This document shows, piece by piece, positions 8,508 through 52,031 of a DNA stretch of 64,000 nucleotides. The notes under the pieces are model-generated. The model searched no databases and was not told where the DNA came from. It was given only the letters and a program-made list of their open reading frames with translations. Within the stretch, counting starts at the first letter, position 1. Every line of letters starts with the position of its first letter. Where the stretch lies: NCBI GenBank assembly GCA_030427835.1, contig JAUICN010000008.1, positions 1-64,000 on the forward strand. The letters run 5' to 3'. Source of the DNA: Polyangia bacterium. GTDB lineage: Bacteria > Myxococcota_A > Polyangia > Polyangiales > JAUICN01. A program made the translations under genes and the position numbers.

Positions 8508-10148
8508 CTAGGAAGCGACCTTGAGGCGGGTTTTGGGTTTGGGCTTTTTCACCAGGGTGGAGGGTTCGCCTTCGGCGATGTTGTGGTGCTTGCGCCACAC
8601 CTTTTCGTAAGCGTCGATGCCACGGTAGTCTCGTGCGACCATCAGTTCACGTAGGCCCAGCAGTTCCACGGCGTTGAAGTTTTCAGAAATCACTCCGGTG
8701 GCGGAAGTGGCATCCCCAAGGGCCAGAATGAAGGCTTCCAGATCACCGCCGTACTGTTCGATCAAGCGATCCCGGTACACGGTGAACCATTCAGATCCGG
8801 GGTATGGGGTAGCGATAAAGGGCTTGGATTGGATCCCCAACTTGTCCCAGGCGGCCATATTTTGGCGGATGGAATCAAAGTCCTCCACGGGAAAACCGAT
8901 GATTTGGTTGGGCAGAGGGCGAATGCCAGACTCGAGAGTCCAAAAGAAGCTTCGCTCGTTGGTGGTGGGCGAGGCGCCCTTCCCCACGGTTTTCATCACA
9001 TGGGGAGAGAAGGATTCGTAGCCGTAGATCAGGTAGGAGCACCCGGCTTCGCGCATGTCGGCAAGGATGTCCTTATCCACAAGCGTGGCGTGGCTGGTTC
9101 CGGACCAAAGCACACCCGTCCAATCCTCGGTGCGTTCTCGGCCCTCCCGAAGGTAGTCGGGCTGAAGGCCCTTCTCTTTCCAGAGCCTGCAAATCTCAGG
9201 AAGCCACGTGCCCCCGGAGGCCCGGTTCATGGTCATCAGGTTCTCATCCAAAAACGCCACAAAGTTAATGTCGAAACGCTCCTGGGCGTACTTGGCCAGG
9301 TTCACGATGTACTCGGGGCTGTGGTAGCGAATGCTCCGCGTGTAGGTGCCAGGCTTATCGAACTCCACTTGAGTCTTGCCCTCGTCGTCCTCGGTGTACC
9401 GCATGTCACCCGCGATCCCCAGGTGGTAGCAGTACCGGCAAATCATGGAGCAACCGTAGCTTCCATTGATATCGAGCCTGCGACTGGCCTGCATGCCCTC
9501 CTCGGAATAGAGCACCTGGCTGTTGGGGAAGTACACCTCCTCCAGGGGAAACAACTCCCAGGCGGGATAGGGCAAGGTATCCAAGTCCTCGATGAGCTTA
9601 CGCTCCGCACTGAACTTGAGCTCACCCTGGGCATCCCGTGAAACCGTGCCGGCAATGGCGGACCAATCGATGGTGTGCTTGAACAAGGCATTTGGACTCC
9701 CATCACCCGTAGCTTCCACGGCAGCTTCGACCGCAGCCTTGGCCTGGTCCACAGCTGTGAGCATTTCGGGAAACGTCTCAAACGCTTCTCCCACAGCGCC
9801 CACATCCACCGGGTGCAACCACGTCATCATGTCCCTGGGAAGCGAGGTCAACACCCCACCGCCCAACATCACCACAGCCCGGGGGCAGATCCGTTGTGCA
9901 ATGGAAACAATTTCCTTGATGGAACCGTAAGCCGTCGTAATGCCGCCGGTGGCAATAACATCCCAATCGTCCGCCGTGCAAACCTGCTCCAGCATGTCGG
10001 CCCCCTTGCGCCAGGCGTTGTGATCATAGACCTGCACCTGGTGCCCCTCGCGCATGGCAATGGAAGCCAAAAGCGCCATTCCATAGGGCACGTGTCGCGG
10101 CACGTCTTCCTCGCGCACCATGGGATTGATCAACAGTATCTTTGCCAT
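8508..10148 (-). CDS. B12-binding-domain radical SAM enzyme
   Basis: A 546-residue enzyme with an N-terminal cobalamin-binding-like Rossmann domain (about residues 1-135, starting AKILLINPMV) and a radical SAM core. The 4Fe-4S binding CxxxCxxC is C233, C237, C240 (CSMICRYC). The B12 part lacks a clear DxHxxG motif, as in most B12-radical SAM proteins of this class. Members methylate or rearrange unactivated carbons; the substrate here is unknown. It is downstream of Maf 2 (33-nt gap) in the same orientation, inside the flagellin glycosylation island, so sugar or glycoprotein modification is a reasonable inference. ATG 10148 has a GGAG ribosome-binding site. Confidence 0.85.
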   Translation of the reverse strand: MAKILLINPMVREEDVPRHVPYGMALLASIAMREGHQVQVYDHNAWRKGADMLEQVCTADDWDVIATGGITTAYGSIKEIVSIAQRICPRAVVMLGGGVLTSLPRDMMTWLHPVDVGAVGEAFETFPEMLTAVDQAKAAVEAAVEATGDGSPNALFKHTIDWSAIAGTVSRDAQGELKFSAERKLIEDLDTLPYPAWELFPLEEVYFPNSQVLYSEEGMQASRRLDINGSYGCSMICRYCYHLGIAGDMRYTEDDEGKTQVEFDKPGTYTRSIRYHSPEYIVNLAKYAQERFDINFVAFLDENLMTMNRASGGTWLPEICRLWKEKGLQPDYLREGRERTEDWTGVLWSGTSHATLVDKDILADMREAGCSYLIYGYESFSPHVMKTVGKGASPTTNERSFFWTLESGIRPLPNQIIGFPVEDFDSIRQNMAAWDKLGIQSKPFIATPYPGSEWFTVYRDRLIEQYGGDLEAFILALGDATSATGVISENFNAVELLGLRELMVARDYRGIDAYEKVWRKHHNIAEGEPSTLVKKPKPKTRLKVAS

Positions 10149-49527: not shown

Positions 49528-49824
49528 GTGAACAAAGTTCTATTCGGCATCCTGTTTCTCGTTCCAATAGTCTGTTTCACTGTTTCCGTTCTTGCCGCCG
49601 CCATGTTCTGGGAAGAACCCGGATCCAACGATCTTGCACCCTTGATTGGATGGTTCACAGCCCTGCCCTTCATTGTGTTCTGCGCCTACAAGGCCATCCA
49701 CCACATGCGTAAAAAAGGGGACCCCATCACCATATTCATGTGGGTGTTCTTTTTGCCCCTGCTCGGCCCCGCATTTGGATTTGGTTACTGCTTGGTCGCC
49801 CTGAAGCCCATCTCTTACATGTAA
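49528..49824 (+). CDS. Small three-helix membrane protein
   Basis: A 98-residue membrane protein with about three hydrophobic segments (near 4-26, 40-56, 70-94) and a basic loop (HHMRKKGDP). GTG 49528 has TAGG 9 nt upstream. No family is recognised. The stop is directly followed by the ATG of the Lgt-like gene, so it heads a three-gene operon with Lgt-like and Tes-like proteins and may be a membrane partner of them. Confidence 0.65.
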   Translation: MNKVLFGILFLVPIVCFTVSVLAAAMFWEEPGSNDLAPLIGWFTALPFIVFCAYKAIHHMRKKGDPITIFMWVFFLPLLGPAFGFGYCLVALKPISYM

Positions 49825-50517
49825 ATGCATTCTCTCTTTGAACTCGCAGGTGTGGCGTGTGCCTTCGGCGTCACGTGGTTTGTGCGGCGCAACCTCCATC
49901 CGCCAAAGACATCGTTTCGTACGACCCCTCTTTGGACCTCTGCAACTGTGGCCGGGTCCATTCTCGGCGGCTTTCTTTTCGGCAGCCTCAATGCACACCT
50001 GTCCAGTCACCCAGGGGCGATTGCCCGCAGCATTCTCGGGGCATTGGTCGGTGCCATCGTCGTCGTTGAAACAGTCAAACATCGAAACGGGGTCAAGGAA
50101 TCCACGGGCGCCGTACTTGTGCCTGGCCTAACGATAGCCATCATAGTCGGGAGGCTCGGCTGCTTTGTGGACGGGCTTCGTGACTTTACCTACGGCACCG
50201 CCACCACCCTACCCTGGGCCGTGGACTTTGGAGACGGCATACTGAGACACCCCGTACAGCTCTATGAAGCAAGTTGCATGGCAGCATTTCTGGCAGTTAC
50301 CGCACTGGGCCTATGGATACGGCCACAGCAGTGGCTCAGGAATGGGTTTTACCTATTCACCCTCGCCTACGGCACGCAACGCTTCCTCTGGGAGTTTCTC
50401 AAACCCTACGAAAGGATCGCAGGCCCACTCAATCTCTTCCACCTGCTCTGCCTTGCCCTCATCGCCTACGCCATCCACATGTTGATCCGTCAACGACATC
50501 AAGGAACGCACCCATGA
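49825..50517 (+). CDS. Prolipoprotein diacylglyceryl transferase (Lgt)-like membrane protein
   Basis: A 230-residue integral membrane protein with the Lgt layout. GRLGCFVDGL (109-118) corresponds to the GRxGNF(I/V)N signature, YGTATTLPWAVDF and HPVQLYEA (142-149) follow in the family order, and YGTQRFLWEF (R186) matches the late essential Arg region. True Lgt has a His-Gly-Gly loop, which is not evident here (RSILGALVGA instead). The protein is also short, so it is probably a paralogue with an altered acceptor, not housekeeping Lgt. The radical SAM gene overlaps its stop (ATGA). Confidence 0.75.
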   Translation: MHSLFELAGVACAFGVTWFVRRNLHPPKTSFRTTPLWTSATVAGSILGGFLFGSLNAHLSSHPGAIARSILGALVGAIVVVETVKHRNGVKESTGAVLVPGLTIAIIVGRLGCFVDGLRDFTYGTATTLPWAVDFGDGILRHPVQLYEASCMAAFLAVTALGLWIRPQQWLRNGFYLFTLAYGTQRFLWEFLKPYERIAGPLNLFHLLCLALIAYAIHMLIRQRHQGTHP

Positions 50518-52031
50518 GCTCCGCAGACCCAAACTACACTGACGCAAACTACAAAGAGGAAAGGCGCAATAAACGACCTTATCTCTTTTACTCCGCCACC
50601 CGCGCGCTCTGCTCCAAATGCCTACTGGTTTGCGATGCAAAGGAGCTAGTCGAAGACGGCAAAGTCTACCTATGGAAACGGTGCCTGCAACACGGTCCAG
50701 AGCGCGTACTTCTCTCGGATGACGTGGACTACTTCAAACTCTGCCGCGAGGTGTACCTCAAGCCTCCCGAACAGGTGGAGCAGTACAATACTGGGGTCAA
50801 GTACGGCTGCCCCTACGACTGCGGCATCTGCCCCGACCACGAACAACACGGGTGCGTCAGCCTCGTGGAAGTAACCGACCACTGCAACCTCCGTTGCCCC
50901 ACCTGCTTCGCGTCAAGCGGGCCAGAACGCCAGACCGTCCGTTCCATGGAGCAAATCGAAGCCATGCTCGACCGCGTCGTCGCCAACGAGGGCACCGCAG
51001 AGGTCGTGCAAATATCGGGAGGCGAACCCACCACGCACCCCCAGTTTTTCGACATCCTGGACGCATGCAGGCAACGCCCCATCAAACACCTCATGGTCAA
51101 CACCAACGGCCTACGGATCGCCAGGGAACAGGGCTTCGCCGAACGGCTCGCCCAGTACCAACCCGGGTTTGAGATCTACCTGCAGTTCGATGGCCTCACG
51201 GACGAAATCACCCAGGACCTCCGTGGGGCAGACCTCACGGAGATCAAATACAAGGCCATCGAACGGCTCAACGAGGTGGGCCTCTCCACCACGCTTGTGG
51301 CCACGCTCAAGCGTGACGTCAACGACCACGCCATCGGGCAAATCATTGAGTTCGCGGCCAAACAACCCGCCGTGCGCGGCGTCACGCTGCAACCCATCCA
51401 CGACTCCGGGCGCAATGAGGACTTCAACCCCGATGCCAACCGCTTCCCCCTATCTGAAGTCCGGCGCCGGCTTGTGGAACAATTCCCCACGTTCACAGCC
51501 GCCGACGTGCTTCCCGTGCCTTGCAACCCAGACTCCATTGCCATGGCCTATGCACTACGCGGAGAGGGCGACGAGCACAGCACACTGACACCCCTGACCC
51601 GCTATATTCCCCCCGAAGTACTTCTCGACGCAGGCGGAAATACCATCGTGTACGAGGGGGACAAACCCCTGCTGGGCGCCGCCATGAAGCAGATTTTTGA
51701 AACCTTCTCCACAAGCCACGGCCCCGAAGGCGCTGGCAACGCCCTGCGCGACCTGCTCTGCTGCCTACCCCAGGTAGAGGCCATGCCCAACCTCGGCTAC
51801 GAGCGCGTCTTTCGAATCATCATCATGGCGTTCCTGGACAAACACACCCTCGACCTTCGTTCCGTCCGAAAAAGCTGCGTGCACGTCCCTTCCCGGGACG
51901 GATCAAAAATGATCCCGCTCGACACCTACAACATCTTCTACCGCGACGAACCCGAACGACAACACCTACAACAACTCCGCCAAATCACCACAACCGGTCT
52001 TCGCAAAACCCAGACTTACGGAGCCGTGTAA
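50514..52031 (+). CDS. Tetraether lipid synthase (Tes)-like radical SAM protein
   Basis: A 505-residue radical SAM enzyme. The radical cluster motif is C124-x3-C128-x2-C131 (HCNLRCPTC). Extra cysteine sets precede it: C33/C36/C40/C57 and C99/C103/C106/C114 (CPYDCGICPDH). The C-terminal part has a lone Cys in KSCVHVPSRDGSKMIPLDTYN. This cysteine plan and the CPYDCGxCP...H linker are those of the MJ0619/Tes family, which joins lipid chains through unactivated carbons in archaea; bacterial homologues are tied to membrane-spanning lipids. ATG 50514 overlaps the Lgt-like stop and follows AAGGA. The substrate here is inferred, not shown. Confidence 0.83.
   Translation: MSSADPNYTDANYKEERRNKRPYLFYSATRALCSKCLLVCDAKELVEDGKVYLWKRCLQHGPERVLLSDDVDYFKLCREVYLKPPEQVEQYNTGVKYGCPYDCGICPDHEQHGCVSLVEVTDHCNLRCPTCFASSGPERQTVRSMEQIEAMLDRVVANEGTAEVVQISGGEPTTHPQFFDILDACRQRPIKHLMVNTNGLRIAREQGFAERLAQYQPGFEIYLQFDGLTDEITQDLRGADLTEIKYKAIERLNEVGLSTTLVATLKRDVNDHAIGQIIEFAAKQPAVRGVTLQPIHDSGRNEDFNPDANRFPLSEVRRRLVEQFPTFTAADVLPVPCNPDSIAMAYALRGEGDEHSTLTPLTRYIPPEVLLDAGGNTIVYEGDKPLLGAAMKQIFETFSTSHGPEGAGNALRDLLCCLPQVEAMPNLGYERVFRIIIMAFLDKHTLDLRSVRKSCVHVPSRDGSKMIPLDTYNIFYRDEPERQHLQQLRQITTTGLRKTQTYGAV

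Follow-up and report, generated by a model that had tools for sequence, protein, structure and literature searches.

A recurrent bacterial gene cassette associating a Tes-like radical SAM enzyme, an Lgt paralogue and a small cysteine-bearing membrane protein

For GDGT-MAS (Tes, MJ0619; PDB 7tol), the archaeal synthase of tetraether lipids, the ligands of three sites have been described (PMC9433317): a rubredoxin site, an N-terminal [4Fe-4S] site and the radical SAM site. Bacterial Tes homologues have been counted as membrane-spanning-lipid genes at 28-42% identity (PMC8941075) and have also been counted at 30% or more identity (PMC11868695). In the prolipoprotein diacylglyceryl transferase Lgt of Escherichia coli, His103 is the proposed base and the replacement of Asn146 by Ala inactivates the enzyme (PMC8689077). 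The locus described here associates relatives of both enzymes with a small membrane protein.

The window, i.e. the whole stretch of 64,000 nucleotides that was analysed, belongs to a 3.3 Mb, 98% complete assembly of a Polyangia bacterium. It carries three tightly packed genes, all on the + strand. The first (49528..49824, +) has a GTG start and encodes a protein of 98 aa with three predicted transmembrane segments and its N-terminus inside. The second (49825..50517, +), which follows the stop codon of the first with a zero-base gap, encodes an Lgt paralogue (PF01790) of 230 aa. The third (50514..52031, +), which shares an ATGA overlap with the Lgt-like gene, encodes a radical SAM protein of the Tes superfamily (505 aa). 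The three-gene operon proposed by the first-pass annotation is therefore present, with its gap and its overlap, and the codon-position G+C is coding-like in all three genes. For the small gene it amounts to 0.50/0.38/0.66, versus 0.55/0.62/0.59, which is not coding-like, in the open frame that precedes the GTG; the GTG start is thus plausible. A second, unrelated radical SAM domain is found elsewhere in the window (8865-9467, -). A reading of the locus as a defence system was dropped, since PADLOC gave only weak viperin matches that come from the common radical SAM core.

The radical SAM protein matches PF04055 (87 bits) and PF23545 (Zn_ribbon_HMPTM, 46 bits), and its sole full-length relative of solved structure is GDGT-MAS 7tol (E 3.8e-57). 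Its AlphaFold model (31 aligned sequences, pLDDT 84.6) matches 7tol over the full length (TM 0.77/0.79, E 1.5e-36). The next fold matches are peptide-modifying radical SAM enzymes, for the core domain only. Judged from the aligned sequences, its cysteine plan is that of GDGT-MAS at all three described sites. Indeed, the rubredoxin-like metal site C33xxC36-x20-C57xxH60 (50610..50693, +) is identical in motif to that of GDGT-MAS and keeps its cysteines in 108/108 homologues; the N-terminal [4Fe-4S] site C99xxxC103xxC106..H109 (50808..50840, +), equivalent to C73/C77/C80/His of GDGT-MAS, is kept in 106 of 107; and the radical SAM motif CX3CX2C (C124, C128 and C131; 50883..50906, +) is present in all 108. 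C114 is also invariant in the homologues. The Tes-like architecture that had been read from the sequence is therefore supported by both motifs and fold. The C-terminal part carries C337 (51522..51524, +), which is a Ser in GDGT-MAS, and C455 (51876..51878, +), which corresponds to C476 of GDGT-MAS, each conserved in 108/108 homologues, as well as a C416-C417 pair (51759..51764, +) whose two residues are kept in 98 and 101 of the 108 and are missing mainly where there is no Lgt partner. These cysteines suggest a re-arranged C-terminal cluster in the cassette enzyme, of which C337 would be a candidate ligand.

The Lgt-like protein scores above the gathering threshold of PF01790 (LGT; 69.5 bits for a cut-off of 24.9, E 3.6e-19) and falls below every NCBIfam lgt equivalog cut-off. 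A PDB sequence search gave no genuine match, and Foldseek found none in the PDB at E <=0.001, Lgt 5azb included, for its AlphaFold model (pLDDT 84); its relationship with Lgt therefore rests on sequence profiles. Relatives were also absent from the viral contigs scanned with this protein. Its residues R110, E148, Y182 and R186 correspond to R143, E202, Y235 and R239 of E. coli Lgt (5azb); R110, Y182 and R186 are kept in 98-100% of 77 homologues, in which E82, K85, R110, C113, R141 and R186 are invariant. By contrast, the position of H103 is occupied by Val, Met or Leu, the His-Gly-Gly loop being absent as first noticed, and that of N146 by the invariant C113, within a GRLGC site (R110...C113; 50152..50163, +) that retains the Arg143 equivalent. 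The protein thus keeps most of the residues by which Lgt holds phosphatidylglycerol and may still bind this lipid, but its chemistry is probably altered, given the replacement of His103 and Asn146. It is not the housekeeping Lgt, since a further and stronger PF01790 protein was found in 15/15 genomes tested (14 with the pair and a Shewanella with the radical SAM gene alone). In the genome of the window, the only other PF01790 protein (G000:C22:277543-278274, L009) is also odd, with YGG for HGG, GRTGCF for GRLGNF and 77 bits versus an lgt cut-off of 118.9. A canonical Lgt was not found in this genome, even though the window encodes many lipoprotein-like signal peptides.

The small membrane protein, to which the first-pass annotation had paid too little attention, is a recurring part of the cassette. 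Small transmembrane proteins of 55-150 aa are found by the pair in Flavobacteria, Sphingobacteria, Paenibacillus, Acidobacteria, Proteobacteria and Myxococcota, upstream of it, downstream or between its two genes, and sometimes in two copies. They are too diverged across loci for one common Pfam or NCBIfam family and share a motif that is roughly [GS]-[LF]-[GAST]-x-C-[GFA] (for example LGICG, FSTCW, NAACFG or LTICGA), with the cysteine in the last third of a helix or just beyond. The protein of the window, which has no Pfam or NCBIfam match in profile searches, agrees with those of other phyla in position, topology and cysteine motif, and it is on these features, including its Cys88 (codon TGC, 49789-49791, +; motif GFGYCLVAL at the outer end of the last helix), rather than on overall sequence similarity, that it was assigned.

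A protein with this motif, encoded at <=450 bp, occurs in 67 of the 85 Lgt-positive loci with full flanks and in 59 of 518 control transmembrane ORFs taken elsewhere in the same loci (11%; p 9e-47). This p-value is only indicative, because these very loci served to derive the regular expression and because related ones among them do not count as independent. As the proteins were picked by the motif, conservation of the cysteine inside the picked set is circular and only the excess over controls counts. Several of the 18 loci without a match, including the window, do match with trimmed start codons or a looser motif. The small protein was also found again at loci collected without the DNA-pattern scan and, in the two genomes in which the pair is split, it stays beside the Lgt-like gene. 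Positive charges lie on the N-side of the cysteine helix in 66/71 small proteins, and none lies past the helix in 63/71; the cysteine should therefore face the periplasm, like that of a lipobox. The motif itself is, by its sequence, not a lipobox, only 3/80 small proteins fitting the classic [LVI][ASTVI][GAS]C. In several Bacillota (L099:4826-5083, L183:161-457, L090 and L107), a B-box-like zinc ribbon precedes the cysteine-bearing helix.

Relatives of the radical SAM protein with about 48-64% identity are found in Bacteroidota, Bacillota, Pseudomonadota, Acidobacteriota, Myxococcota, Elusimicrobiota, Planctomycetota and Melainabacteria, and a scan of genome contigs gave 80 radical SAM loci at 50-60% identity in many phyla. 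An Lgt-like gene flanks the radical SAM gene in 81/98 loci and, after duplicate removal, lies within 2.5 kb on the same strand in 87/108, frequently with an overlap. Both genes were also searched independently and genome-wide in the same samples, with an Lgt-like threshold of E below 1e-40 and radical SAM orthologues cut at a gap in the score list, both set after the lists had been seen. With these thresholds, the Lgt-like gene is present in 13/13 Bacteroidota genomes that have the radical SAM gene versus 1/135 of those that lack it (Fisher p 9e-18), and in 14/15 versus 3/174 Myxococcota genomes (Fisher p 2e-17). This co-occurrence is not due to linkage alone, since several Myxococcota pairs lie on separate contigs. 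The conserved functional pair suggested by the first-pass annotation is supported, and the absence of co-occurrence elsewhere that would have refuted it is decisively contradicted. Furthermore, since both the pair and the small protein are found again in one phylum after another, the locus is more than a chance arrangement, and it is almost certain that the three parts belong together. The sulfate permease, chloride channel and acyltransferase-MFS genes, considered as further parts, are recurrent neighbours but lineage-specific and were rejected.

Of the three Myxococcota genomes in which the Lgt-like gene stands without the radical SAM gene, two have a more distant radical SAM relative; the Bacteroidota genome without partner carries its Lgt-like gene at G220:C10:163730-164440 (L207). 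The Myxococcota exception that has only the radical SAM gene (G126) groups in one subclade with Shewanella and a Woeseia/Ectothiorhodospiraceae group, and the members of this subclade have neither an Lgt-like neighbour nor a small protein nor the C416-C417 pair. They perhaps perform a different reaction. Among the loci of this subclade (L092, L098, L106, L101 and L052), L106 lies beside DUF547 and methyltransferase genes, and related genes are found in others.

In phylogenetic trees with Tes, and in later ones also TrsS, as references, which were quick, midpoint-rooted and not free of long branches, the cassette clade forms a single compact group (39 rows, support 100/100). In the fuller tree, a branch with 100/99 support separates this clade and its nearest relatives from GDGT-MAS and long Myxococcota homologues; when TrsS and Acidobacteriaceae sequences are added, the split between the cassette clade with its relatives and TrsS with Tes has an SH-aLRT of 99. 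The Acidobacteriaceae are rich in iso-diabolic acid. The cassette clade occurs in 7/80 of their genomes, whereas a long Tes-side homologue (frames of about 700-760 aa) is present in most of the 80. This near-universal homologue is therefore the better candidate for diabolic-acid synthesis. Such long Tes-side proteins (frames of about 630-760 aa), found in most Acidobacteriaceae and in several Myxococcota (L231-L243, L034-L040), are candidates for iso-diabolic acid or Mss activity. In some other Myxococcota loci (L056, L057, L058, L060 and L063), two or three tandem radical SAM genes of the Tes superfamily lie by SDR genes, with adjoining ketosynthase genes in L057, possibly forming a separate fatty-acyl pathway. 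In one further locus, a distant radical SAM relative (L064:5596-6408) adjoins a fatty-acid hydroxylase gene, with an Lgt-like gene nearby.

The reading that we favour, while giving it somewhat less than an even chance, is that of a three-part membrane modification cassette: its Lgt paralogue would attach a lipid to the cysteine of the small protein, or place one nearby, and its radical SAM enzyme would couple or modify the lipid tail. In more detail, the Lgt paralogue would move a diacylglyceryl-type group from a phospholipid onto this cysteine or load the lipid alongside. The radical SAM enzyme, acting from the cytoplasmic side on a tail reaching in, would then take a hydrogen from an unactivated tail carbon and form a C-C or C-S bond, leading to a tail-coupled lipid or to a lipid covalently bound to the small protein. 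Several lines of evidence favour this cassette mechanism: the linkage of the Lgt-like gene, its genome-wide co-occurrence and the excess of small proteins over controls; the charge geometry of the small protein, which matches that of a lipobox cysteine; the joint loss of the Lgt gene, small protein and C416-C417 in the G126/Shewanella/Woeseia subclade; the small protein that stays by the Lgt-like gene in the two split genomes; the GDGT-MAS fold of the radical SAM protein, whose distant relatives lie near SDR/ketosynthase and fatty-acid hydroxylase genes; and the separate, stronger Lgt-family protein in all genomes tested. It is weakened by the near relatives L041 and L043, in which no small protein was seen adjoining the pair. 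Moreover, ordinary diacylglyceryl transfer is doubtful, because the motif of the small protein is not a lipobox and the catalytic His of Lgt is gone. The more specific version, a pan-bacterial system in which the Lgt paralogue lipidates a cysteine at the membrane interface and the Tes-type radical SAM enzyme joins its tail to another lipid or to the protein, is unlikely as it stands, but would be the most novel.

The rival that we rank first, and regard as possible though rather doubtful, is a pathway acting on free lipids, in which the radical SAM enzyme would, like Tes, couple or modify the tails of phospholipids, the Lgt-like protein would move the modified glyceryl group to another acceptor and the small protein would be an anchor or docking subunit with a structural cysteine. 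The GDGT-MAS fold with its lipid precedent and the phosphatidylglycerol-site residues kept in the Lgt-like protein agree with such a pathway, and the zinc-ribbon N-termini of some small proteins could serve docking. However, a structural role leaves unexplained why one cysteine motif is kept amid the divergence of the small proteins, and in the tree the cassette clade does not fall on the Tes side. Next comes a RiPP-like maturation, in which the radical SAM enzyme would modify the small membrane peptide around its cysteine, through a thioether or a C-C link, and the Lgt-like protein would serve it as a partner in the membrane or as a transporter. This is improbable: a fast-diverging small peptide, sometimes in two copies, does adjoin a radical SAM enzyme whose next fold matches act on peptides, but these matches are limited to the core domain, the full-length match is a lipid enzyme and not a SPASM peptide maturase, and the cysteine is predicted at the outer face whereas the enzyme is cytoplasmic. 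The last rival, the diabolic-acid or membrane-spanning lipid synthesis by a bacterial Tes/Mss enzyme that the first-pass annotation had in mind, has a superfamily and a fold in its favour but is very improbable, as the tree, the curated cut-offs, the C-terminal ligands and the distribution of the two homologues in Acidobacteriaceae disagree with it, even if lipid chemistry as such is still conceivable.

A description of this cassette was not found in the open-licence literature, and searches of that literature for Lgt with radical SAM, TrsS or COG1964 likewise gave nothing relevant. What is new is the combination of three parts and its breadth, rather than any fold: the cassette occurs in ordinary bacteria from soil, fresh water and the sea, over at least eight phyla. 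If the cassette modifies lipids, it represents a new branch of radical-SAM lipid chemistry; if lipidation is indeed followed by tail joining, mesophilic bacteria would have a new class of modification that links lipids and proteins covalently. In addition, where bacterial Tes homologues are counted as membrane-spanning-lipid genes at the identities quoted above, several pathways may be lumped together, a caution that matters when producers of the brGDGTs used in climate proxies are sought.

Two described radical SAM proteins, TrsS and Tes, were compared in sequence with that of the cassette; a third, Mss, shares the catalytic architecture of Tes according to a 2026 paper (PMC13274423). TrsS (NF045646) provides the best-scoring curated model, with 309 bits, but its cut-off of 490 is not reached; the proteins above this cut-off score 530-690, form a separate clade and have no Lgt-like gene in their retrieved flanks. 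Tes (GDGT-MAS) resembles the cassette protein in its full-length fold and its rubredoxin, N-terminal [4Fe-4S] and radical SAM sites, but differs from it by an identity of only about 27% and by a score of 238 bits against a cut-off of 450 for NF045702 (285-299 for relatives). In a comparison made at the cysteine positions of GDGT-MAS, in whose structure 7tol Met439 is a described cluster ligand, three of the four C-terminal cysteines are missing in the cassette protein, C458, C475 and C490 being replaced by Ile, Ser and Asp, while the fourth, C476, is kept as C455. Conversely, the cassette protein has C337 and C416/C417, and Lgt-like and small-protein partners. Therefore, contrary to its initial assignment to the Tes group, the cassette radical SAM protein is Tes-like but lies outside both Tes and TrsS, as indicated by tree, curated cut-offs and C-terminal ligands.
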